A DNA stretch of 20,529 bases from a virus. Made by a program: the position numbers and the translations under genes. Position 1 is the first letter of the stretch. Every line of letters starts with the position of its first letter. A model generated the notes under the pieces. That model was not told the DNA's origin. It saw nothing but the letters and a program-made list of their open reading frames with translations, and did no database searches. Location of the stretch: the IMG/VR virus record IMGVR_UViG_3300017971_000863, positions 1-20,529 of that record. One strand, given 5' to 3'. This document shows, piece by piece, positions 1 through 20,519 of this stretch.

Positions 1-478
1 ATCTCGTACTTGTGCTGGTCGTGGACGTACTTGTGCTGGTCGTGGACGTACTTGTGCTGGTCGTCGTACTCGTGCTGGTCGTGGTGTCGGTCGTAGTCGT
101 TGTACTAGTCGTGGTGTCGGTCGTAGTCGTTGTGTTTGTCGTAGTCGTGCTGGTAGTCGTGGTCGTGGACGTACTTGTGCTGGTCGTAGTACTACTCGTT
201 GATGTGGTGGTAGTGCTTGTGCTACTCGTTGACGTTGTGCTGGATGTCGACGTGGTACTAGACGTTGTCGTCAGAAAACCAGAACTTACATTACGCCAGT
301 AAGAGCCGTCCCACTGTAGCACGTCACCGTTAGCCAGAGCCGTCAAGTCCACGTCAAGCATCCCGGACACCTTTAATAATGTGTCGTTAAGCTCGGTCAT
401 ATTCGCATCCAGCGCCGTTAGCCAGCCCTGGCAAGAGTAGCGAAGCGTACGAAGTTGTGACGCGCTAAGATATGCCAT
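1..478 (-). CDS. Fibre-like tail protein with long Thr/Ser-rich segment (partial)
   Basis: This gene starts at 478 and runs off the left edge, so only its first 159 codons are visible. Its ATG shares one base with the TAA of the hub gene (TAATG), which fixes the start. Residues 1-40 look helical. Residues 41-64 (MLDVDLTALANGDVLQWDG, then YWRNV) match the 'dvdl..l.dGdvL.wdg..W.nv' segment that recurs in phage tail-fibre proteins. From residue 70 to the edge the protein is almost pure Thr/Ser, at least 90 residues, broken only by one Asn and two Asp. The position after the tail hub fits a fibre or tip-associated protein. I cannot tell whether the Thr/Ser segment is a terminal tail, as in four other genes here, or a linker to a further domain. 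That the gene is real is fairly sure; the fibre role is inferred. Confidence 0.75.
   Translation of the reverse strand, partial: MAYLSASQLRTLRYSCQGWLTALDANMTELNDTLLKVSGMLDVDLTALANGDVLQWDGSYWRNVSSGFLTTTSSTTSTSSTTSTSSTSTTTTSTSSTTTSTSTSTTTTTSTTTTNTTTTTDTTTSTTTTTDTTTSTSTTTSTSTSTTSTSTSTTSTSTR
5..67 (-). repeat. 21-bp tandem repeat, three units, in Thr/Ser coding region
   Basis: The unit cgtacttgtgctggtcgtgg plus a occurs at 5-25 and 26-46, and at 47-67 with the last three bases changed. A fourth copy of its first 19 bases lies apart at 170-188. The period is seven codons, so gain or loss of units keeps the reading frame. On the coding strand each unit encodes Thr/Ser. Confidence 0.9.
81..140 (-). 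repeat. 30-bp tandem duplication encoding the Asn/Asp-containing Thr block
   Basis: Positions 81-110 and 111-140 are near-identical 30-bp units that differ in a few bases near the end. They encode TTTTTDTTTS-like and NTTTTDTTTS-like decapeptides. These are the only places in the visible Thr/Ser tract where Asp or Asn breaks the Thr/Ser pattern. The period of ten codons preserves the frame. Confidence 0.85.
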
Positions 479-7802: not shown

Positions 7803-7883
7803 TTACGGTGCAGTCGTGGTTGATGTCGAGCTGGTCGAGCTGGTCGAGGTCGAGCTGGTCGTCGTAGACGTCGTGGTGGTCGT
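7803..7883 (-). repeat. Thr/Ser tail-coding tract built on 9-bp units
   Basis: This is the 26-codon tail plus stop. On the plus strand gtcgagctg recurs at 25-33, 34-42 and 49-57 of the 7801 line (7825-7833, 7834-7842, 7849-7857), with a six-base partial unit between the last two. The unit differs in both length and sequence from those in the other Thr/Ser loci. Confidence 0.8.
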
Positions 7884-9203
7884 TGCCTCGGTGACACAGA
7901 AGTAATCCTCCGGCAACGCGTCAGCGTGTCCGAGAAAGACACGATGTTTCTTCGTGAGTCCCTTCACGATATCATTGACTGAGACATCGTCCGACGGAAC
8001 CCCGTACAAGCCATCGAGGTCCATTAGTATGCGCTTGTTCGCCTGGTCCATCACGAAGATGGGCTGCATGAACAGATGACCCGATGGTGTCGATGTCAGC
8101 GTCTTCGAGCTGTTGTAGTGCGTCGTATGCCCGGAAGTCGAGGCGGTCGGATAGAAGCATGGCAGATTGTAAATCGACGCCTGGTTCATGTGCTGATACG
8201 AATTGTCCGGCAATATTGTATGCAGCGTGTAGTGGTATGACGTAAGGTTCGATTGATTCGGACCCATCGCCCAGTCGTTGGACAAGTCGCCCGGTGCCAC
8301 AAGGTAGCTGTACGCCGATGCCTTCGCAATACCCGGATTAGGATATTCCGAAGCCGCCCCAAAGCGCCTACCAAATCCGAGGTACATGCCCTCCCACCTT
8401 GAGCGATCCAGGATGACGATGATGCGCTGTCGGTTCGAGTAAATCCAGTATTCGTACGTCGATGGTGCAGTGACCTTGGTTCCTGGTAGGCTCGGAAGCT
8501 GTGTCCATACATCGTATGTATTATTGTAGCCGCTGAGTCCCGAGGTCGCTGCATCGTAATTCCAAATGGTCGGAGTAGAGTCCGGGTAGCTCTTCCAAAT
8601 GGCGATTTGTAGTCCGTAGCGGCTATTAGCCGAGTCGTAAAACTCGCGCATCCCCACGGTTACATAATCCTCGCCAGCGAGCCCACGGTTCTGAATTATC
8701 CACTCCTTGCAGTCGCCAGCGGACCACGTATCCGTAATCGTCGAGCCCGTCGAGTCGGTCGTGTTACGGTAGACAAGCTCCTTCCAATCTGCGCCCGGTT
8801 CGCCATAAATGTAGGCGCCGTAAATATTTGTCGAATTGTCGGGAGCGGTTGAGAAGTTGAGAACCCAGTCGCCCGTCGTGTAGTCGATGGTGTTTGCCAG
8901 CGCCGTGTTCAACTTCCCGCTCGCGGATTCGTCCACGATGGTCCCCGACCCGTCATCGAGCGCATAGTAATCCACTGCCCCGACCGTGTACTTGACTCGG
9001 AACCGACCTAGCGCAATGGGATTGTTCGCCGCGGTCCCCGAGAATGCGGTCAGGATGCCGTTAGGCGTCGCATCGATGGTTTCGGACCATTCCGATACCT
9101 CGGTACCCGTGATGATGCCCCGCAAGGTCTGTAGGAAGCCCGAGGCGCCGTACCAGTCGGATAGGGTCCCGTTCGCGAAGGTCTGATTCAGTGAATCTGA
9201 CAT
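7803..9203 (-). CDS. Structural protein with C-terminal Thr/Ser tail
   Basis: This 466-residue protein lies between the tape measure and its relative at 6756-7793. Residues about 1-130 form a beta-rich module ('GTYTIDDYTTGDWVLNF'-like pattern, here IDYTTGDWVLNFS). Residues 245-300 contain 'YWIYSNRQRIIVILD' and 'MYLGFGRRF', matching the layout of the next gene. The last 26 residues are Thr/Ser only until A-P-stop. ATG at 9203 is preferred over an in-frame TTG at 9206: it sits in TGATG with the tape-measure stop and has AGGAG 8 nt upstream. Several cysteines and aromatic residues argue for a folded virion protein. The tail is one of five Thr/Ser segments in this window. The exact role is unknown. 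Confidence 0.65.
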   Translation of the reverse strand: MSDSLNQTFANGTLSDWYGASGFLQTLRGIITGTEVSEWSETIDATPNGILTAFSGTAANNPIALGRFRVKYTVGAVDYYALDDGSGTIVDESASGKLNTALANTIDYTTGDWVLNFSTAPDNSTNIYGAYIYGEPGADWKELVYRNTTDSTGSTITDTWSAGDCKEWIIQNRGLAGEDYVTVGMREFYDSANSRYGLQIAIWKSYPDSTPTIWNYDAATSGLSGYNNTYDVWTQLPSLPGTKVTAPSTYEYWIYSNRQRIIVILDRSRWEGMYLGFGRRFGAASEYPNPGIAKASAYSYLVAPGDLSNDWAMGPNQSNLTSYHYTLHTILPDNSYQHMNQASIYNLPCFYPTASTSGHTTHYNSSKTLTSTPSGHLFMQPIFVMDQANKRILMDLDGLYGVPSDDVSVNDIVKGLTKKHRVFLGHADALPEDYFCVTEATTTTTSTTTSSTSTSSTSSTSTTTAP

Positions 9204-12130
9204 CAATCTTCTCCTAAGACGATTTGTTTCAGCATGAATTGATTCTCGGTAAGGATGTTAAGGACATCCTTTTCGCCAGGCTTGCTCTGCAAGTAGCCGC
9301 TCATGGCTTGTGGGTCCTTGACGTTGACGATATTGATGGGCGTCGAGCCTCGTCCACCCTGCGACGTATCGGGCAGGTCCCGTGCTCCTCGGGCTACGGC
9401 CCCGCCTGCCTGGAAGCGGAAACGGTTCGATGGGGGCGCCGGAGGCACGCCCGCCGCCGCAGATGCCAGTACTTCCCGCGGAATGCTGCGCGACCGGATG
9501 GCTTCCATCGCCTGGGCGCCGTAGTACTTTACGGTTGAGACCGGCTGGACAAACTCGCCCGCGGTCAATCTGGCATTGATGTTATCCGCCTTCGCATGCG
9601 GGCTAAAGCCCTGTACCTCACCACCCTCGGCAAGGCTCTGCTGGCGGATTGTATTGACTCGCGCCAGGCCTTGAGCCACGGCGAGCGCTGCCATGACGGG
9701 CGCCAGGTAGGTCCCGACGTATGGAATCGCGGCCGCCGTGGTGTAGGCATTCTGCGCCGATTCGTACGTTTTCATTAGCGTCATCGCGATGGCGATGGCT
9801 TTCTGGGCATAGAAAAACTCTTTCGCCTTCTTGCCCGAGGCTTCATAAAGCTCCGTGAAGGCATCGGAGGCGTTCTGCAGGGTCGAGCTGGTCGCATCCC
9901 AGACCCGCTCATTCGCAGCCTTTCTGATTTCGGCGAGCTCGTTCTCGTGGGCCTGGACGATTTGCTTCTCGATGTCGTTCTGCTCGAGCTTGGATACCAT
10001 TCCCTGGTCAAAAAGGACCTGGGCTTGCGCCATGCGCTCCTGGAAGCGTAGGTCAGCCTCCGCGGTAGCCTGCTCGTCAAGCGCCAGAAGCCGACTTTGT
10101 TCATCCTGCGCTCCTGCAACAGCGATGTCGCTTAGCATCGCCTGAAGCTTCTGCTTCTGTTGCACCGCTTTGAGCTGCGTCTCGGAGCTGAGCCCGGGCG
10201 CTGCGGCTGTGGCACCATCGGGCGTGGTCTTCTTGACGCCTTCGTCCTCTGCAGCGAGGCGCTTACGCTCTGCTTCCTGCGCTTTCTCCTTCTGAGCGAT
10301 TATCGCACGCGAAAGCTCCTCATATTTCAGGGAAAGTTGGTCAACATTTGAAATCTCGGATGCAAGCTCCCGAAGGCGCGCCTGCGCCGCGTCGCGCTGC
10401 GCCGCCCAGTATTGCTCCTGGTCGCTCCGGTCGGTTGCCAAGACGTCGGATAGGATCCGCTGCGCCTCGATTTCGGCCTTCGTAGACTTGATGCGCTGGT
10501 CAGCAGCCCGGACTCCAGCATCACCGACCCGAGCCAAAGCCCGCTCCGTGTTGTAAAGCCCCTTCAACAAAGCGTCGGGGACCGCGGCATCGCTGAATTG
10601 ATTCACGGCGTCCAGAGCCAGGCGCGTTTTTTGCACCAGGTTTGCCAGTGTGGCTATGATGTCCCGCGCCGCAATCCGAAACGCCTTGCTAACATTGTGC
10701 CAAGCAACGTTGATGTACAGGACGGCCGCCCGAAAATCGGCTATTAGGCTCTGCAGGTGCCGTAACCCCTTGGTTACCAGCTCGGCGAAGCCGTACCAGG
10801 TCGAGGACAAGAGCTCCCAGACCATTTGCAGCCCGCGCCAGGAGTCCGTCAAGTAAGCAACACCATATGTTACACCGCGGATGGCGGATGCCATGTTGTT
10901 CCCAAAAGCGGACCCTTCTTCCCCGAGTCCTCGTACCGCCATGGCGAGGATATTCATGGTCTTGGTGAGCTCGCCGCCTGCCGAATCGGCATCCAGTGTA
11001 TTGAGCGTCAGGCTCTCGAATGCGCTTTTGACCCGCAAAAGCGCGCCGTTTAGGTTGTTATCCATGATTTCTGCGGTAAGCTTCGCGGAGCCCTCAACAC
11101 CCCGAAGTCGCGACGCGAACTTGTCCACCTCAGGCAGATTTTGCGCCAAGATGTTGAACGTCGGTCCCGCGCGGAGCCCAAACAGGTTCATGGCTTCCTG
11201 AGCATCGACGCCTGCCGCAGCAAGGTTCCCGATAGCCTCGGACAATGAGACGACGGTCAGGTCCACTTTTTCGAGCGGCACCCCGACCTTCTCCGCGACG
11301 CCCGCGAGCCTGGCGATGACACGAGCCAGCCCAGACCCGCCGATGCTGCCTGCTCTGGCGTTGTTGGCGAGGACCTGCAGTGCTGCGGTAGTTTGCTCGA
11401 GGTCCAAGCCGAACAGTGCCGAGGTAGAGCCTGCATGCTTTAGCGCCTCTCCAAGCTGGGTCACATCCGTATTAGATGTGTTCGCTGCGGTTGCGAGAAC
11501 ATCTACCGCGTGCCCCGCCTGAAGTCCCGATTTCCGGAACGCCGCCATGGTCGTGGCGACAAGCTTCGATGCGTCCGCCAGCTCGATAGCGCCCGCCTGC
11601 GCTAAAGTCAAAGTGTCATCGATGGTCTCGAACACGGCGTTAGTGTCAAGTCCCGCCCGGGCAAGCTCGACCATGCCCTCGGCTGCCTGTGTCGCGGTAA
11701 ATCGGGTTGTTGCCCCGAGGTCCTTGGCTCGCTGCTCGAGGGTCGCGAACTCCTCGCCGGTTGCTTTGGTGATAGCCTGTACCGTGGACATCGCCTGACC
11801 AAAGTCCGCGACCGTCTTAATCGCCTTGCGGAGAATCAAGAAGCCACCGATTGCCACCAGCGCACGCCGCAAAAGCTGCGCGGTGGATCGCGTGGATTTC
11901 ATCGTCGCGTCGGTTCGCTTCAGCTCCTTGGTGAACTGCCCGAGGGAGTTCCTCCCGCGCTTCGCGGCTTTTCCGGTCTGGTCTAACGATTGTCTGACCT
12001 TACCGGTTTGCTTGCTGGTTGACTTCCCGGTGTTCCCGAGCTTCCGTAGCGCCTGCTCGATGCCCTTGAGCCGCTGCGTGGCGGCTGCGGCCTCGAGTTG
12101 GATGATAATCTGGAGATTTTCGGATGCCAT
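9203..12130 (-). CDS. Tail tape measure protein
   Basis: This 975-residue protein sets tail length and is ejected with the DNA. Residues 1-95 are Lys/Arg/Gln-rich coiled coil. Residues about 105-370 match the phage tail tape-measure core (TIGR01760/PhageMin_Tail): 'FGQAMSTVQAITKATGEEF', then 'LGATTRFTATQAAEGMVELA', 'AGLDTNAVFETIDDTL' and 'NNARAGSIGGSGL'. The centre has long helices. The C-terminus carries 'AEGGEVQGFSPHAKADNINA' and RLTAGEFVQPVS, a segment conserved near the end of many tape measures. At about 0.15 nm per residue, the usual relation, the tail would be roughly 145 nm. It begins immediately after the TAG of the frameshift product and ends in TGATG with the next gene. Confidence 0.95.
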   Translation of the reverse strand: MASENLQIIIQLEAAAATQRLKGIEQALRKLGNTGKSTSKQTGKVRQSLDQTGKAAKRGRNSLGQFTKELKRTDATMKSTRSTAQLLRRALVAIGGFLILRKAIKTVADFGQAMSTVQAITKATGEEFATLEQRAKDLGATTRFTATQAAEGMVELARAGLDTNAVFETIDDTLTLAQAGAIELADASKLVATTMAAFRKSGLQAGHAVDVLATAANTSNTDVTQLGEALKHAGSTSALFGLDLEQTTAALQVLANNARAGSIGGSGLARVIARLAGVAEKVGVPLEKVDLTVVSLSEAIGNLAAAGVDAQEAMNLFGLRAGPTFNILAQNLPEVDKFASRLRGVEGSAKLTAEIMDNNLNGALLRVKSAFESLTLNTLDADSAGGELTKTMNILAMAVRGLGEEGSAFGNNMASAIRGVTYGVAYLTDSWRGLQMVWELLSSTWYGFAELVTKGLRHLQSLIADFRAAVLYINVAWHNVSKAFRIAARDIIATLANLVQKTRLALDAVNQFSDAAVPDALLKGLYNTERALARVGDAGVRAADQRIKSTKAEIEAQRILSDVLATDRSDQEQYWAAQRDAAQARLRELASEISNVDQLSLKYEELSRAIIAQKEKAQEAERKRLAAEDEGVKKTTPDGATAAAPGLSSETQLKAVQQKQKLQAMLSDIAVAGAQDEQSRLLALDEQATAEADLRFQERMAQAQVLFDQGMVSKLEQNDIEKQIVQAHENELAEIRKAANERVWDATSSTLQNASDAFTELYEASGKKAKEFFYAQKAIAIAMTLMKTYESAQNAYTTAAAIPYVGTYLAPVMAALAVAQGLARVNTIRQQSLAEGGEVQGFSPHAKADNINARLTAGEFVQPVSTVKYYGAQAMEAIRSRSIPREVLASAAAGVPPAPPSNRFRFQAGGAVARGARDLPDTSQGGRGSTPINIVNVKDPQAMSGYLQSKPGEKDVLNILTENQFMLKQIVLGED

Positions 12131-12714: not shown

Positions 12715-12777
12715 TTATGCGGCCGTGGTCGTTGTACTAGACGTGGTTGTAGAGGTACTAGACGTGGTAGTAGTTGT
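12715..12777 (-). repeat. Thr/Ser tail-coding tract with 21-bp tandem pair
   Basis: The 20-codon tail plus stop contains two 21-bp units at 12734-12754 and 12755-12775 that share the 14-base core gtactagacgtggt. The unit length keeps the reading frame. The sequence differs from the repeats of the other Thr/Ser loci, so these tails were not simply copied from one gene to another in recent time. Confidence 0.8.
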
Positions 12778-13293
12778 GATGCGGTTCACAGTAGCGTATG
12801 GGCTCGAAGCCTGATTCGTAGAGTCAGCAAGTCCTTCGCCCGTGAAGCTCATCGATTGCCACTCGTTATCACCAATCAAGGCAATTGCACCGTTAGGCGT
12901 CAGAGCAACACGATGGAAGAACCATCGATACTTAACGCCTATCGGGTTGGTCGCCTCGAATTTAAGGGCGTATTCCTTCTCGGCGTTCTGGAGTATGTAA
13001 ATACTATCCCCAGATTGTGTACCGAGAAGGTATTTGGTGAGATTAGTCGACGCCATCTCATCGCATTCGAATGTGATGGTATACTGCGTCTGTACGACGG
13101 GGTAAGCATCACGCTCCCGTAGACCCTCCCGTGAGCTGAAATGCTCCAGGCGGTCCACGGAAGGCTCGACTTCGATGGATGGACAGTTGCCCATCTCACT
13201 ATACGCCCCGGCACCTCCGGCAAGGGTCCAGTTGGCAATATACAACTTGCCCTTTCCGATGGTGTAGTTGTTAATACTGGCCGGGGTTGCCAT
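12715..13293 (-). CDS. Major tail (tube) protein with C-terminal Thr/Ser tail
   Basis: This 192-residue protein fits siphophage tube proteins, which stack as rings to form the tail. It starts 'MATPASINNYTIGKGKLYIA', then has 'GNCPSIEVEPSVDRLEHFSS' and REGLRERD, then 'TQYTITFECDEMASTNLTKY' and LLG, the usual order for the family. Residues 173-192 are a Thr/Ser tail ending A-A before TAA. The start at 13293 is used although the frame is open to 13362, because TGATG overlaps the preceding stop and GGGAGGAA lies just upstream. Its position before the chaperone pair and tape measure is canonical. Many tube proteins carry an extra C-terminal Ig-like domain facing outward; here that place is taken by the Thr/Ser tract. 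Confidence 0.87.
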   Translation of the reverse strand: MATPASINNYTIGKGKLYIANWTLAGGAGAYSEMGNCPSIEVEPSVDRLEHFSSREGLRERDAYPVVQTQYTITFECDEMASTNLTKYLLGTQSGDSIYILQNAEKEYALKFEATNPIGVKYRWFFHRVALTPNGAIALIGDNEWQSMSFTGEGLADSTNQASSPYATVNRITTTTTSSTSTTTSSTTTTAA

Positions 13294-13751
13294 CAAATTC
13301 CTCCCGTTGAGTGAATGTAAGTTACAACGATGTCGATACCAAATGCACAGTACGGATGCCAATACTCGACATCCGCGATCGGCTTCAACACCGCCTCGAT
13401 TGCGTTCTCCTCAAATCGAGGGTCCGCATACAGAGCGATCCAGAGCTTCTCGAGAAGCTCCGAGAGGGTAGCGTCCGCATCCTCATTATCCTGAAAGTAG
13501 CAGTTGACTCGTATGGTCAAGTCCGACATGATGCGATCGACGTCTCCGGGGATCCTAGCGGACTTCTTTTCGGTCGGCACAGGCAGCCCAGCAGTAATCG
13601 AGGCTACAGGAAACTGGGACTCGTTGAATTCGCTCAGTCCTTCGTACGTGGGCAGGCGCCGAACAACGGTTTTAATTGCGTCAACAGCCTCCAGCTTCGT
13701 TTTTACCTCATTCACTAGTGCTTCCCGCGTCGTATTCCGCCAAGTAGCCAT
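13293..13751 (-). CDS. Tail terminator / tail completion protein
   Basis: This 152-residue protein occupies the usual place of the tail terminator (lambda gpU-like), just before the major tail protein. It begins with a helical segment, 'NEVKTKLEAVDAIKTVVRRL', followed by 'QFPVASITAGLPV', a strand-rich middle ('MSDLTIRVNCYFQ'), a helix ('LSELLEKLWIALYADPRF'), and a strand-rich end (FGIDIVVTYIHSTGGI). That alpha/beta order suits the terminator fold, a ring at the head-proximal end of the tail. Its ATG overlaps the previous gene's TGA by 1 nt, and its own TGA overlaps the tube gene by 1 nt. Sequence similarity alone would not decide between tail terminator and another neck protein; synteny favours the former. 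Confidence 0.68.
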   Translation of the reverse strand: MATWRNTTREALVNEVKTKLEAVDAIKTVVRRLPTYEGLSEFNESQFPVASITAGLPVPTEKKSARIPGDVDRIMSDLTIRVNCYFQDNEDADATLSELLEKLWIALYADPRFEENAIEAVLKPIADVEYWHPYCAFGIDIVVTYIHSTGGI

Positions 13752-14991: not shown

Positions 14992-15330
14992 TTACGGTGC
15001 GGTTGTGGTCGTCGACGTACTAGTTGTCGATGTGGTGCTAGTCGTACTCGTCGATGTAGTGCTAGTCGTCGAAGTCGATGTGGTGCTAGTCGTCGAAGTG
15101 CTAGTCGTCGAAGTCGATGTGGTGCTAGTCGTCGAAGTGCTAGTCGTCGAAGTCGATGTGGTGCTAGTCGTACTCGTCGATGTAGTGCTAGTCGTCGAAG
15201 TCGTTGTGGTCGTCAGGTACCGCTCCTGGACCGCTCGAATGTGCTCGCGAAGCCGCGGAAAGACCCCGGGATTGTTCCCGAGGTCTTTTGCATTAAGGCG
15301 TGCAAAGTGATCCGAAAATTCGTTGGCCAT
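14992..15330 (-). CDS. Capsid-associated small protein with long Thr/Ser tail (paralogue B)
   Basis: This 112-residue protein has a 39-residue N-terminal part with 'AKDLGNNPGVFPRLREHIRA' and VQERYL, and then a 73-residue Thr/Ser tail ending T-T-T-T-A-P. The N-part is 30/39 identical to that of the neighbouring gene at 15357-15527, so the two arose by tandem duplication; the copied unit includes the ribosome-binding leader. Position just after the major capsid protein suggests a head decoration or head-fibre protein, with the N-part as the capsid anchor and the Thr/Ser tract projecting outward. That role is inferred. ATG at 15330 follows AAAGGAGG, whose bases lie in a hairpin. A plus-strand Val-rich frame across this region is a shadow. 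Confidence 0.75.
   Translation of the reverse strand: MANEFSDHFARLNAKDLGNNPGVFPRLREHIRAVQERYLTTTTTSTTSTTSTSTTSTTSTSTTSTSTTSTTSTSTTSTSTTSTTSTSTTSTTSTSTTSTTSTTSTSTTTTAP
15029..15202 (-). repeat. Nested minisatellite, order A(48)-B(39)-B(39)-A(48)
   Basis: The 48-bp unit at 15029-15076 recurs at 15155-15202, and between them the 39-bp unit at 15077-15115 recurs at 15116-15154, all reading identically by eye. Both start gatgtggtgctagtcgt, then diverge and end alike (gctagtcgtcgaagtc). Periods are 16 and 13 codons, so every gain or loss keeps the frame. Near-perfect identity at synonymous positions suggests recent expansion by slippage or recombination. Confidence 0.88.
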
Positions 15331-15331
15331 T

Positions 15332-15359
15332 TAAGCCTCCTTTCTGATTCGGAGGCTTA
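15332..15359 (-). promoter_or_regulatory. Hairpin covering the Shine-Dalgarno of paralogue B
   Basis: A 9-bp perfect stem (15332-15340 with 15351-15359) and 10-nt loop lie between the two paralogues. On the minus strand the 5' arm, TAAGCCTCC, contains the TAA stop of the short paralogue, and the 3' arm, GGAGGCTTA, contains the Shine-Dalgarno of the long one. No T-tract follows, so it is not a typical terminator. Translation of the upstream paralogue could open it. Confidence 0.7.
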
Positions 15360-15527
15360 TGGCGCCGTAGTGGTGGACGTTGTCGAGGTGGTCGAGGTGG
15401 TCGTGGTCGTTAAGTAACGCTCCTGGACCGCTCGGATATGCTCCCGCAGCCGCGGATAGACCCCAGGGTTATGCCCCAGGTCTTTCGCTTGCTGCTGTGC
15501 ATCCCTTCCTTCGAATTCGTTAGCCAT
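15357..15527 (-). CDS. Capsid-associated small protein with short Thr/Ser tail (paralogue A)
   Basis: This 56-residue gene starts at ATG 15527 with AAAGGAGG upstream and ends TAA at 15357. Its 39-residue N-part ('AKDLGHNPGVYPRLREHIRA', then VQERYL) is 30/39 identical to paralogue B. The differences are clustered at residues 6-13, plus 19 and 24. The tail is only 17 residues, T and S ending T-T-T-A-P, against 73 in the other copy. It follows the major capsid gene by 27 nt, which suggests high expression together with the capsid and a role as decoration or head-fibre protein. It is too short for routine ORF finding but is well supported by paralogy, start site and spacing. Confidence 0.8.
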   Translation of the reverse strand: MANEFEGRDAQQQAKDLGHNPGVYPRLREHIRAVQERYLTTTTTSTTSTTSTTTAP

Positions 15528-15531
15528 ATTG

Positions 15532-15554
15532 GCCTCCTTTCGTTATAGGTAGGC
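15532..15554 (-). promoter_or_regulatory. Weaker version of the Shine-Dalgarno hairpin before paralogue A
   Basis: Between the capsid stop and paralogue A, GCCTaCC can pair with GGAGGC across the loop TATAACGAAA, with one bulged base. As in the copy before paralogue B, the 3' arm holds the Shine-Dalgarno, and the loop end GAAAGGAGGC is the same, so the leader was part of the duplicated unit. The stem is short and may be marginal. Confidence 0.4.
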
Positions 15555-16520
15555 TCAGGACGTGGCCAGTCCAGTGATTTTCCCGTGGTACTCTTCCGGA
15601 CCGTAATCGAGTCCGATCTGACCATAAATCTGACCCACTTCGCTAGCGCCGCCGGGATCCAGCGGTTCGTAGAAAAGGACGCCCTTTTCTGGTACGGGCA
15701 GATAGACAGGCGAGCACACGGACAGGTCAGCAAGAAGCACGGTATCCGTGTCGAGCTTCGGGCACCAGACCACATCCATCATGACAAAATCAACCATCAC
15801 AGTTGAAATCTCGACGCCACCGACCGTACGGCTCGGCGGAGCGTACCCGAAAATCTCGGAGATGCGTTGACGCTGGTAGCTGTTGCAGAACATCATGATG
15901 TTTCGGAAGATGGCGCCATTACCAGCCATCGTCCTGACAAGCTGATTAATAAGCGATCGAGAAAGCTGCGCGTTACCGGCAGCCACCGCGTTAGTTGAGC
16001 AAGCCGTCACGATACCGCGCGTCTTTGCGGCAACGTTTGCTGCCGTCGCCTGCTGGTACGCACCATGCAAGAACGTGTATTCCGTGTCGATGGCGATCTG
16101 CTCGAGAGCCGCCTGAATCTGAAAATCGCGCTCATTGCGCACCGGCTGCCCGCCACCCATGATGTCAATAAGACCGGTAGTAGGATCGGCCGTGACCTGC
16201 CCAACAACACTCTGCTTGACGTAAGACACATCGACGCTTTTGTGCACGATGTGACAAGTGTTGTAGTCCACTCCACGGACATAGGTCCAAGCCGTAGGTC
16301 GTGTAAGACTATCCGTTTCGGTGATAGCGGGCTGTGCCGCACTCTCGAGAGCGTAAGTCTGCGCCAGCGCAAACTGCATGTCCCCGACAAGCTTTACGTT
16401 CCCGCCCTGCAGACCGCCGATCTGATTCAGAAAAGGCGTCTGATTCGCTCCAATCAGGTAGAGCTCCCCCACATAATTCGGCGCATTCCAAGAAGTTGCC
16501 GCCGCATTCGTGTTTGGCAT
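15555..16520 (-). CDS. Major capsid protein (SU10-like, DUF5309)
   Basis: This 321-residue protein matches the SU10/DUF5309 group of HK97-fold capsid proteins. Characteristic parts are 'YVGELYLIGANQTPFLNQIG', with G-G, then 'ESAAQPAITETDSLTRPTAW' soon after, 'YNTCHIVHKSVDVSYVKQSV' and 'RNERDFQIQAALEQIAIDTE' in the E-loop and spine region. The C-terminus reads 'GVLFYEPLDPGGASEVGQIY', then GQIGLDYGPEEYHGKITGL. AGGAGGAAACA precedes the ATG, a strong site fit for an abundant protein. No prohead protease gene is visible nearby; in this family a separate scaffold, as at 16533-17393, is common. The call is the firmest in the head module along with the portal. Confidence 0.9.
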   Translation of the reverse strand: MPNTNAAATSWNAPNYVGELYLIGANQTPFLNQIGGLQGGNVKLVGDMQFALAQTYALESAAQPAITETDSLTRPTAWTYVRGVDYNTCHIVHKSVDVSYVKQSVVGQVTADPTTGLIDIMGGGQPVRNERDFQIQAALEQIAIDTEYTFLHGAYQQATAANVAAKTRGIVTACSTNAVAAGNAQLSRSLINQLVRTMAGNGAIFRNIMMFCNSYQRQRISEIFGYAPPSRTVGGVEISTVMVDFVMMDVVWCPKLDTDTVLLADLSVCSPVYLPVPEKGVLFYEPLDPGGASEVGQIYGQIGLDYGPEEYHGKITGLATS

Positions 16521-16532
16521 TGTTTCCTCCTA

Positions 16533-17393
16533 TTAGGACTTGGCTCGCTGAAGGTCGTAGATTTGGGTTTTCAGCCGCGTCATTGCTGCGGCATCTCCAT
16601 TCTTCTGCGCCTCCGCGAATTGTGCTTTCAGTGTTGTCAGCGGAGTCCGAGCGCCAGGCGGGCCAGAGCCGCCCCCCGCAGCTCCTGAACCTCCCGACCC
16701 CGCTCGAAGAAGCCTTTCCTTACCAGGATATTCAGAAAAGATAGAGTCCATCGCTTCCGCGAACTGGGCAGGCTCTCCGATGCGCTTTGGGTCCTTGCTC
16801 ATGATGACTTCACCAGTCGCATCTTTCCCGACAACGCGGAGCTTACCATCCACATCCTGAACCTCAAAGCGCCCACCAAAGTATGTCTCAGCGATTTCAG
16901 GCGGAAGTATCGTCCTCGGGTCCGTGCCGCCAAAAAGCTCATGCTGCGCGAACTGAGACGAAATCATAAGGTTTCGGATGTGTCCATCCTTCTGCGTTAG
17001 AAGCTCCTGGAGCGCATGCTCGCGTTCAGCGAACTGAGCCTTAAGCTTCTCTTCCTGGGCTTTAATTCCCTCTCGCGCTTCCTGCTTGATCTTTTCGACC
17101 TCACCGGCTTGCAACTTCTGGGAATCCTCGAGGTTTTGGACCGTCTCCATCGCTTCTCTGGCTGCCGAGACAAACTCATCCAAGTCCTCGACGTCCTCGA
17201 CCGCCTTTAGGCGTGCCTCCGCTGCCTCGAGCTTCAGGCGCTTGGCCTTGTCCTGAGAATTCAGCGTGAGTATCTTGTCGTGCATCCGGTTAGGGTCAAA
17301 AGCCATCTCCGTTCCTTCGTCGTCGACGTAAACGGGAAGACCATCCTCAAGTGCAAGGCTTCCATCCTCGCTGGTTTTGGGTTTCCAAGGCAT
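16533..17393 (-). CDS. Head scaffolding-like protein (DUF6651-type)
   Basis: This 286-residue protein lies just before the capsid gene, the usual place of the scaffold. It opens 'MPWKPKTSEDGSLALEDGLP', then VYVDDEGTEMAFDP, as in phage scaffold-like proteins of the DUF6651 kind. Residues about 45-145 form a long charged coiled coil (KIKQEAREGIKAQEEKLKAQ). The region at 150-215 has 'FGGTDPRTILPPEIAETYFG', then 'FEVQDVDGKLRVVGKDATGE'. A Gly-rich linker (GSGGSGAAGGGSG) leads to a C-terminal helix, 'LKAQFAEAQKNGDAAAMTRL', a likely capsid-binding end as in other scaffolds. It starts after a 92-nt gap with AGGAGAG upstream and ends 12 nt before the capsid ATG. Confidence 0.78.
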   Translation of the reverse strand: MPWKPKTSEDGSLALEDGLPVYVDDEGTEMAFDPNRMHDKILTLNSQDKAKRLKLEAAEARLKAVEDVEDLDEFVSAAREAMETVQNLEDSQKLQAGEVEKIKQEAREGIKAQEEKLKAQFAEREHALQELLTQKDGHIRNLMISSQFAQHELFGGTDPRTILPPEIAETYFGGRFEVQDVDGKLRVVGKDATGEVIMSKDPKRIGEPAQFAEAMDSIFSEYPGKERLLRAGSGGSGAAGGGSGPPGARTPLTTLKAQFAEAQKNGDAAAMTRLKTQIYDLQRAKS

Positions 17394-18989: not shown

Positions 18990-20519
18990 CTATTCTTCTG
19001 CCTCGTCTTCCGTCGGGTCGCCGCCGGTCTCGAAGGGATTCTCCCGCGGGGCGCCTGGTTCCTGCCCCTCGGGCAGGTCAAAGTCATCTGGCTGCTTCTC
19101 GATTTCCTCATCGATGACTTTCAGCACCTCGTCATTAGGGTCCTGTAAGTACTGCCGAGCGATACTTTTCTCAACCTCCTGCTTGAACGTCCTGCTGTTT
19201 ACGACCGTCTTGGCTGTAAGGGCGTCCGCCAGGTCTTGCGCCAGGTTCCGAACGTCAAAATCCCGAGGCCGCTCGATAACAGACTTGGTGATATACTGCT
19301 CCATCTGTTGCCAGCGGAGCCAGAAATACAGAATCATGTTCTCGGCCTTCTCGACGTTGATAGCCTTCTGCGTCACCTTGGCATTGAGCTGCTGAAATTC
19401 CGCCGTTAGAGCCACGCCGGACTTAGCTGCAGTCGAGGTTTCCGTCGCGTTAAGCCCGCCGGTATGGGCGATGCGATAAATCTCCGCCGCCTTCTTGGAG
19501 ATTAGCTCTCGGAGCGCCTGAATCGTCGGAGCCGCCTGCGGCACAAGCCACTCGGGCTTTGCCTGCGGATTCTCTGGGTCAAACTCGACGACCGCCGGGG
19601 AGCCTACCTCAACATCCTGCCCCTGTTCCTCCATGGGCATTAGCATGACTGGAAAAGCCGTATACCCGACAATTTCATTGATTTGCGACAGGTCCCGGAG
19701 AATGGACAGGTCAATACGGGCGATCTCGTGCAAGTCCGCCACCCCCATCGGCCACTGCCTACCCTTCAGGTTGTGCATCCAGACCCATGGTATCTCCCCC
19801 AGTGGATTCGGTCCTGAGTCTACGAGGATTCCCTCAGCTTCCCCTGGGGCGTTCTCCTCCGGCTCCTCCCATAGCTCCCAGTGGTCCCGCCACCAGATCC
19901 GGTAACGCCCATCGTCGTCGAAGAGCTTGATATAATCGAGCATCGGACGTCCGACATCATCCCTGACGTATTCCCAGTCGAGGATAGCGGTTGGATGGTA
20001 CCCTGCTAGGTAAGGGTACACACCGCGCCTTAACTCCTCGTCTCGATTCTCGATTACCGCTGTTGGTTTGTCCACCAAAAAGCCCACAAACCCAAACACT
20101 GACGCCCAGCGAAATTGGTCCGCCATGTAATCCTGGAAGGTGTCGCCGTACAGGTTGCAGTCTGCCGCGAAGGCTTGCCAGGAAGGATCCTGTGCCAGAC
20201 CGTCGGGTAACTGTCGAATAGGGTCCTTGCGGAACAGATAGAAGTTGGTCAGATCAACGACCGCCCGCGAGTAGTTAAAGCCGTATAAGTCCGCCATGCG
20301 CCGCAGGTAGGCGTCCGAGGTTTCCCGCTCATGCTGCGGCACAACACCTAGCTCTACAAGCTGCCGAACGCCATCATATGCAGCGCCTAAGAACATGAAT
20401 TCGGTGTAATTGTTCTCATGCATCGGATGCGTCGCCCTAAGGTCTTTTACCAGGAAGATGGAACCCGGGATTGTATCGCCATGTTCGGCGGGCGGAGGGT
20501 TAAGTCGTGTATATGCCAT
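18990..20519 (-). CDS. Portal protein
   Basis: This 509-residue protein forms the dodecameric DNA gateway at one capsid vertex. It fits the SPP1 gp6/DUF4055-like portal type: 'YLRRMADLYGFNYSRAVVDL', then TNFYLF, near residues 70-95, 'WASVFGFVGFLVDKPTAV' in the wing, 'YLAGYHPTAILDWEYV', 'GEIPWVWMHNLKGRQWPMGV' and 'RIDLSILRDLSQINEIVGYT' leading to the long stem helices. 'KKAAEIYRIAHTGGLNATET' fits the tunnel region. The C-terminal 60 residues are acidic and proline-rich (NPFETGGDPTEDEAEE), as in many portals. GAGG lies 7 nt before the ATG. The terminase genes, expected upstream, are outside the window to the right. Confidence 0.88.
   Translation of the reverse strand: MAYTRLNPPPAEHGDTIPGSIFLVKDLRATHPMHENNYTEFMFLGAAYDGVRQLVELGVVPQHERETSDAYLRRMADLYGFNYSRAVVDLTNFYLFRKDPIRQLPDGLAQDPSWQAFAADCNLYGDTFQDYMADQFRWASVFGFVGFLVDKPTAVIENRDEELRRGVYPYLAGYHPTAILDWEYVRDDVGRPMLDYIKLFDDDGRYRIWWRDHWELWEEPEENAPGEAEGILVDSGPNPLGEIPWVWMHNLKGRQWPMGVADLHEIARIDLSILRDLSQINEIVGYTAFPVMLMPMEEQGQDVEVGSPAVVEFDPENPQAKPEWLVPQAAPTIQALRELISKKAAEIYRIAHTGGLNATETSTAAKSGVALTAEFQQLNAKVTQKAINVEKAENMILYFWLRWQQMEQYITKSVIERPRDFDVRNLAQDLADALTAKTVVNSRTFKQEVEKSIARQYLQDPNDEVLKVIDEEIEKQPDDFDLPEGQEPGAPRENPFETGGDPTEDEAEE

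Follow-up and report, generated by a model that had tools for sequence, protein, structure and literature searches.

Results

Two small tandem genes after the capsid gene

The stretch of DNA analysed here (the window; 20,529 nt) is a siphophage virus record from an uncultured phage. Its structural genes lie on the minus strand in the order portal, scaffold-like protein, major capsid protein, two small genes, connector genes, major tail protein, tape measure and tail-tip genes (Table 1). The initial annotation had described the two small genes as tandem paralogues with the same 39-residue head and tails of 17 and 73 residues. Both minus-strand open reading frames are indeed found directly after the capsid gene, and recomputation returned both tail lengths and heads identical at 30 of 39 residues (85 of 117 nucleotides), a match far above chance level (E = 3.8e-17). 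The leader said to be common to the two genes is real but carries little weight: the exact 10-mer GAAAGGAGGC occurs within the window only upstream of these genes, but it amounts to little more than a Shine-Dalgarno site, and AAGGAG-type leaders are present in relatives too. We therefore dropped it as evidence on the paralogues and regard it as an ordinary ribosome-binding site.

Table 1. Features of the window discussed in the text
Feature	Position	Strand	Remarks
Portal	18990-20519	minus	
Scaffold-like protein	16533-17393	minus	
SU10-type major capsid protein	15555-16520	minus	Pfam SU10_MCP, 3e-54; phrog_1328
Leader GAAAGGAGGC of short paralogue	15532-15541	minus	Ribosome-binding site
Short paralogue, 56 aa	15357-15527	minus	Adjoins capsid gene; head 15411-15527 (39 residues), Ser/Thr tail 15360-15410 (17 residues)
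Leader GAAAGGAGGC of long paralogue	15335-15344	minus	Ribosome-binding site
Long paralogue, 112 aa	14992-15330	minus	Head 15214-15330 (39 residues), Ser/Thr tail 14995-15213 (73 residues)
Major tail protein	12715-13362	minus	Ser/Thr tail 12718-12777
Tape measure	9203-12130	minus	
Structural protein with terminal Ser/Thr tail	7803-9206	minus	Tail 7806-7883
Tail-tip small protein, cut by window edge	2-478	minus	Head of about 69 residues, Ser/Thr tail of at least 89 residues (2-271)

The divergence between the two heads is concentrated where it had been noticed before, with seven of the nine differences at residues 6-13 and the other two at positions 19 and 24. The head core (codons 14-39) is under strong purifying selection, with dN of 0.04 versus dS of 1.02; over codons 2-13, dN is 0.68 and dS is near saturation. 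Because the stretch at residues 6-13 varies across the whole head family while the core is kept under such selection, we reject the proposal that the anchor specialised in this stretch after the duplication.

A conserved head in the slot next to the capsid gene

Capsid proteins were used as queries in four IMG/VR scans, which yielded about 120 loci. Most close relatives carry Ser/Thr tails on the anchor, and in these lineages (brush lineages) each locus with enough sequence encodes a head of 34-44 residues followed by a Ser/Thr tail right after the capsid gene. The consensus of the heads reads N-P-[GA]-[VL]-x-P-x-[LM]-R-x-[YFW]-x3-[LV]-[ND]. In 67 motif-aligned heads the R, which belonged to the anchor pattern used for the alignment, is invariant and the P is present in 61; two further heads did not match that pattern. 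An independent head alignment found both the core P and the core R to be more than 90% conserved. When 27 whole records were searched with a head profile, which includes rows from some of these records, matches fell, with a single exception, in the slot that follows the capsid gene. AlphaFold2 predicts a helix-turn-helix for the head (pLDDT 71). Neither PHROGs nor Pfam profiles matched it significantly, and a PDB-sequence profile search and a Foldseek search with the head model gave no meaningful match. Likewise, nothing significant emerged among the named phages searched with an anchor head, and the cultured capsid relatives that we read (Mycobacterium, Propionibacterium and Dulem phages) have no recognisable anchor gene.

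Exchangeable cargo on the probable anchor

Sister lineages, both more distant ones and nested ones, encode in this slot proteins that begin with the same core but continue into other cargo: Ig-like domains (L051, L063, L068, L100 and others), HDHDG-type fibre repeats (L069, L072, L079, L106) or beta-rich parts (L061, L071, L080). A profile built from the Ser/Thr-tailed heads alone ranks these slot genes above other open reading frames (p = 8e-5 against all, p = 1.6e-4 against long plus-strand ones), some near-identical loci being counted more than once. On the capsid-protein tree, non-brush loci are interleaved with brush loci, which takes at least five changes if truncated loci are included and three among loci where both traits are seen. 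The sole genome match, a Desulfovibrio MAG contig ending just past the capsid gene, groups with non-brush loci, apart from L057 and L058. One of the Ig-like sister proteins is predicted by AlphaFold2 (pLDDT 91) to form a helix from the equivalent P-x-x-R and then a beta sandwich, for which Foldseek returned weak, generic beta-sandwich matches alone. In another genome (G013), a second anchor copy (L147:138-1013) lies 14 kb downstream of the capsid gene; it is identical to the capsid-side copy at 24 of 36 residues and continues into a T/V/F-rich tether and a folded domain of about 235 residues, for which Pfam and PDB sequence searches gave no identification.

As a separate observation, a Cys-rich HNH-endonuclease-like open reading frame separates the anchor slot from the capsid gene in L061 (61-771 nt past the capsid gene) and in L066; judged by eye, it is possibly a mobile homing gene.

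The constancy of slot and core, the variety of cargo, the G013 fusion and the predicted structures of the head and of the sister protein all support the view that the head is a docking tag with an exchangeable display. Its partner is presumably the SU10-type capsid protein, as the constant neighbourhood and the analogy to T5 pb10 suggest. The gene adjoins the major capsid gene and is kept across relatives, and a constant anchor is joined to a variable outer part, both of which are marks of a decoration protein. That the head is a decoration anchor, taken by itself, is a reading that we hold with high confidence. The position of the gene between the capsid gene and the connector genes would also suit an assembly or head-completion factor that acts in capsid assembly without being displayed, the tail being merely a flexible handle. 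However, the large folded cargo found in the slot of sister phages (fibre-type repeats and beta-rich domains) fits display, and the second anchor with its folded domain 14 kb away likewise speaks against such a factor, which we consider improbable.

Short and long copies

The initial annotation had viewed the pair as a capsid anchor bearing a short and a long brush and had proposed comparing copy number and tail length in sister phages. The comparison bears out the pairing for part of the family: a short/long pair occurs in five to six lineages. Ten distinct genotypes have two copies, and in every one of them the first-copy tail has 13-17 residues and the second-copy tail 27-147; tails of single copies range from 12 to 71 residues (median 22). 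On the capsid-protein tree the two-copy state requires at least six changes, or five with one- and two-copy loci alone counted. If these changes are gains, the short-first order in all five to six lineages (two-sided sign test, 0.03-0.06) is suggestive. The two copies may occupy different sites, be made in different amounts or build a brush of mixed height.

Composition of the Ser/Thr tails

The capsid-side tails (2337 residues in all) consist of Ser and Thr to 92% (61% Thr, 31% Ser). They contain almost no Gly, and a Gly-X-Y repeat of the SPP1 gp12 type is not found in them. The length of the tails differs even between loci with identical heads (L009/L062, L092/L094 and L110/L111), and the long paralogue tail of the window holds tandem repeats. 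Both observations could be taken to mean that the tails are functionless products of DNA slippage. However, Thr codons are used near-evenly at third positions, and both Ser codon boxes are used in each of the 36 tails that contain five or more Ser, so that it is the protein composition, not a DNA repeat, that persists. The tails are thus under selection for Ser and Thr. Slippage accounts for the change in length, but not for the kept composition, nor does neutral expansion explain why such tails occur on several virion proteins or why first copies keep to 13-17 residues in every two-copy genotype. We therefore give this explanation very little credence.

The same kind of tail on further proteins

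Beyond the two small proteins recognised earlier, the window encodes three further proteins with a terminal Ser/Thr tail, among them the major tail protein (Table 1). A Ser/Thr-ended protein is encoded in the major-tail-protein region of 51 of 52 brush loci versus 0 of 22 others, and the lone exception has a Ser/Ala/Glu tail in both proteins; over the whole tree, this link amounts to only two to three independent switches. The two proteins of a phage also speak the same dialect: poly-Ser is paired with poly-Ser, Thr-rich with Thr-rich and Ser/Glu/Asp with Ser/Glu/Asp, and the Ser share of the capsid brush correlates with that of the tail protein (Pearson 0.82, Spearman 0.40, n = 47). Non-brush phages seemingly have another type of tail protein. 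The idea of a capsid anchor carrying a brush therefore finds good support in its anchor part, from the constant head at one slot, the exchangeable C-terminal parts, the anchor-tether-domain fusion elsewhere and the recurrence of the short/long pair in several lineages; the brush itself, being present on the major tail protein too, is no speciality of the capsid.

The major tail protein of the window is homologous in its tail-tube part to that of Chivirus (Salmonella phage 35), with about 30% identity over residues 15-162. The Chivirus protein has 379 residues and a long C-terminal part annotated as Ig-like, which the window protein lacks. In the latter the homology stops at residue 162-183 and a Ser/Thr tail comes later, so that Ig-like part and brush seem to be alternatives on the tail, just as on the head.

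Two other occurrences of such runs deserve mention. In five loci (L008, L011, L032, L047 and L057), the protein in the head-tail adaptor position, about 660-850 nt past the capsid gene, begins with a Ser or Thr run (poly-Ser or Thr/Ser/Val) in the dialect of its own capsid brush. At the tail tip there is a second family of tandem small paralogues (window 2-478, minus strand; L142, L143, L145, L146) with the common head ..DTLLKV..LANGDVLQWDG..W.. and with Ser/Thr tails on some copies; in several brush phages two or three of them stand in a row shortly before the glycosyltransferase region.

Glycosyltransferase and sugar gene clusters in relatives

Among contigs that extend at least 20 kb beyond the capsid gene, all 11 with the brush have a GT1- or GT2-family gene 15-31 kb downstream of it and in its orientation, as against a glycosyltransferase match in one of three others (Fisher p = 0.033). 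At 18 kb the contrast is 11 of 13 versus 2 of 5 (p = 0.10), and several domain matches in the region fall below curated cut-offs. In brush phages these genes come after the tail genes. The window, in which no glycosyltransferase was found, stops 15.5 kb past the capsid gene, at the point where a cluster could be expected to start. A search for PF13704 glycosyltransferases found none.

The two clusters read most closely, those of the genomes G012 and G010, adjoin structural-type genes; besides several transferases they encode an epimerase of the SQD1 family and a sulfotransferase-like protein. The G010 epimerase matches the UDP-sulfoquinovose synthase family (SQD1) at 1.3e-92, a score below the NCBIfam equivalog cut-off. 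Epimerase and sulfotransferase matches recur in five genomes (G005, G006, G007, G010 and G012); G012 and G009 have hexapeptide transferases, and G010 has a methyltransferase. None of the 20 cluster proteins checked has a clear membrane segment, which suits the glycosylation of soluble proteins more than a lipid-linked surface modification. The sugar clusters of L122 and L130 pair an epimerase of the SQD1 family (UDP-sulfoquinovose synthase-like) with a sulfotransferase-like gene, a set that would suit a sulfated or sulfonated virion glycan.

Discussion

We propose that the two small genes encode capsid decoration proteins, in each of which a disordered tail of Ser and Thr follows a docking head of about 39 residues. 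With its two helices, the second of them starting at P-x-x-R, on either side of an N-P-G-x-x-P turn, the head would bind the exterior of the SU10-type capsid, and the tail would project outward and accept O-linked sugars from phage-encoded soluble glycosyltransferases. Through the like tail of the major tail protein, capsid head and tail tube might carry one common glycan brush. Through duplication, the anchor would exist in one copy with a short and one with a long tail, so that the brush would be of mixed height. Such a brush would probably shield and hydrate the particle and adhere weakly, taking the place of the Ig-like and fibre-like displays that sister phages bear on this anchor.

The glycosyltransferase clusters of relatives, the soluble type of their proteins and the precedents in mycobacteriophages lead us to favour O-glycosylated brushes; the probable glycosylation had escaped the initial annotation. 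Taken as a whole chain of inference from sequence, an O-glycosylated coat on capsid head and tail appears somewhat more probable than its negation. The transferases could, on the other hand, serve some target other than the tails, and the same anchor might bear a bare Ser/Thr brush acting in hydration, spacing or weak adhesion, with the transferases acting, for example, on host surface glycans or modified DNA bases. The evidence for the anchor needs no sugars, the cargo swaps with Ig-like and fibre-like domains, and the contrast in glycosyltransferases between brush and non-brush phages comes from few contigs. Nevertheless, the persistence of a near-pure Ser/Thr composition despite codon turnover, the single dialect on head and tail proteins and the soluble glycosyltransferase clusters directly after the tail genes all argue against a bare brush, which we judge rather unlikely. 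The fullest form of the glycosylated model can be offered only tentatively, as somewhat less probable than not: the whole particle, head and tail, would be clothed in a phage-made, possibly sulfated O-glycan brush on near-pure Ser/Thr acceptors of one dialect per phage, the capsid docking tag of about 35 residues would also take Ig-like or fibre domains, and the short/long pair would set the height.

If this model is correct, it defines a small capsid-docking tag bearing very different cargo, and a virion-wide coat ties the decoration of capsid and tail to a phage glycan pathway. It would also make testable why phages glycosylate their virions in environments that lack adaptive immunity, and the natural short peptide tag might serve for display on SU10-type capsids.

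The combination of a conserved anchor and a variable display is already known among decoration proteins; in the part of the literature that was searched, we came across neither Ser/Thr-tailed anchors nor a Ser/Thr coat on head and tail. In T5 pb10, a conserved helical anchor binds the hexamer centres and the outer domain diverges (PMC5292684). The proteins described here resemble it in having a conserved helical N-terminal anchor and a strongly diverging outer part, and the Ig-like outer domain of pb10 has its counterpart on the anchor of sister phages. However, the anchor here is half the size and shows no detectable sequence or fold match to pb10, a Ser/Thr tail replaces the Ig-like domain, there are two copies per genome, and capsid binding is putative; the 39-residue head may nonetheless be distantly akin to the solved pb10 anchor domain. 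SPP1 gp12, which has collagen-like repeats and forms a trimer at hexamer centres (PMC7602432), is likewise a small capsid protein, as ours would be, with a low-complexity repeat part, but here a Ser/Thr tail stands where gp12 has its collagen repeat. Mycobacteriophages such as Che8, according to the accounts of Freeman 2023 in PMC11256854 and PMC13313380, encode glycosyltransferases thought to modify virion proteins, and their major capsid protein is reported to be modified. The likeness lies in the phage-encoded glycosyltransferases, seen here in the genomes of relatives, whereas the proposed acceptors here would be separate Ser/Thr-tailed anchors together with the major tail protein.
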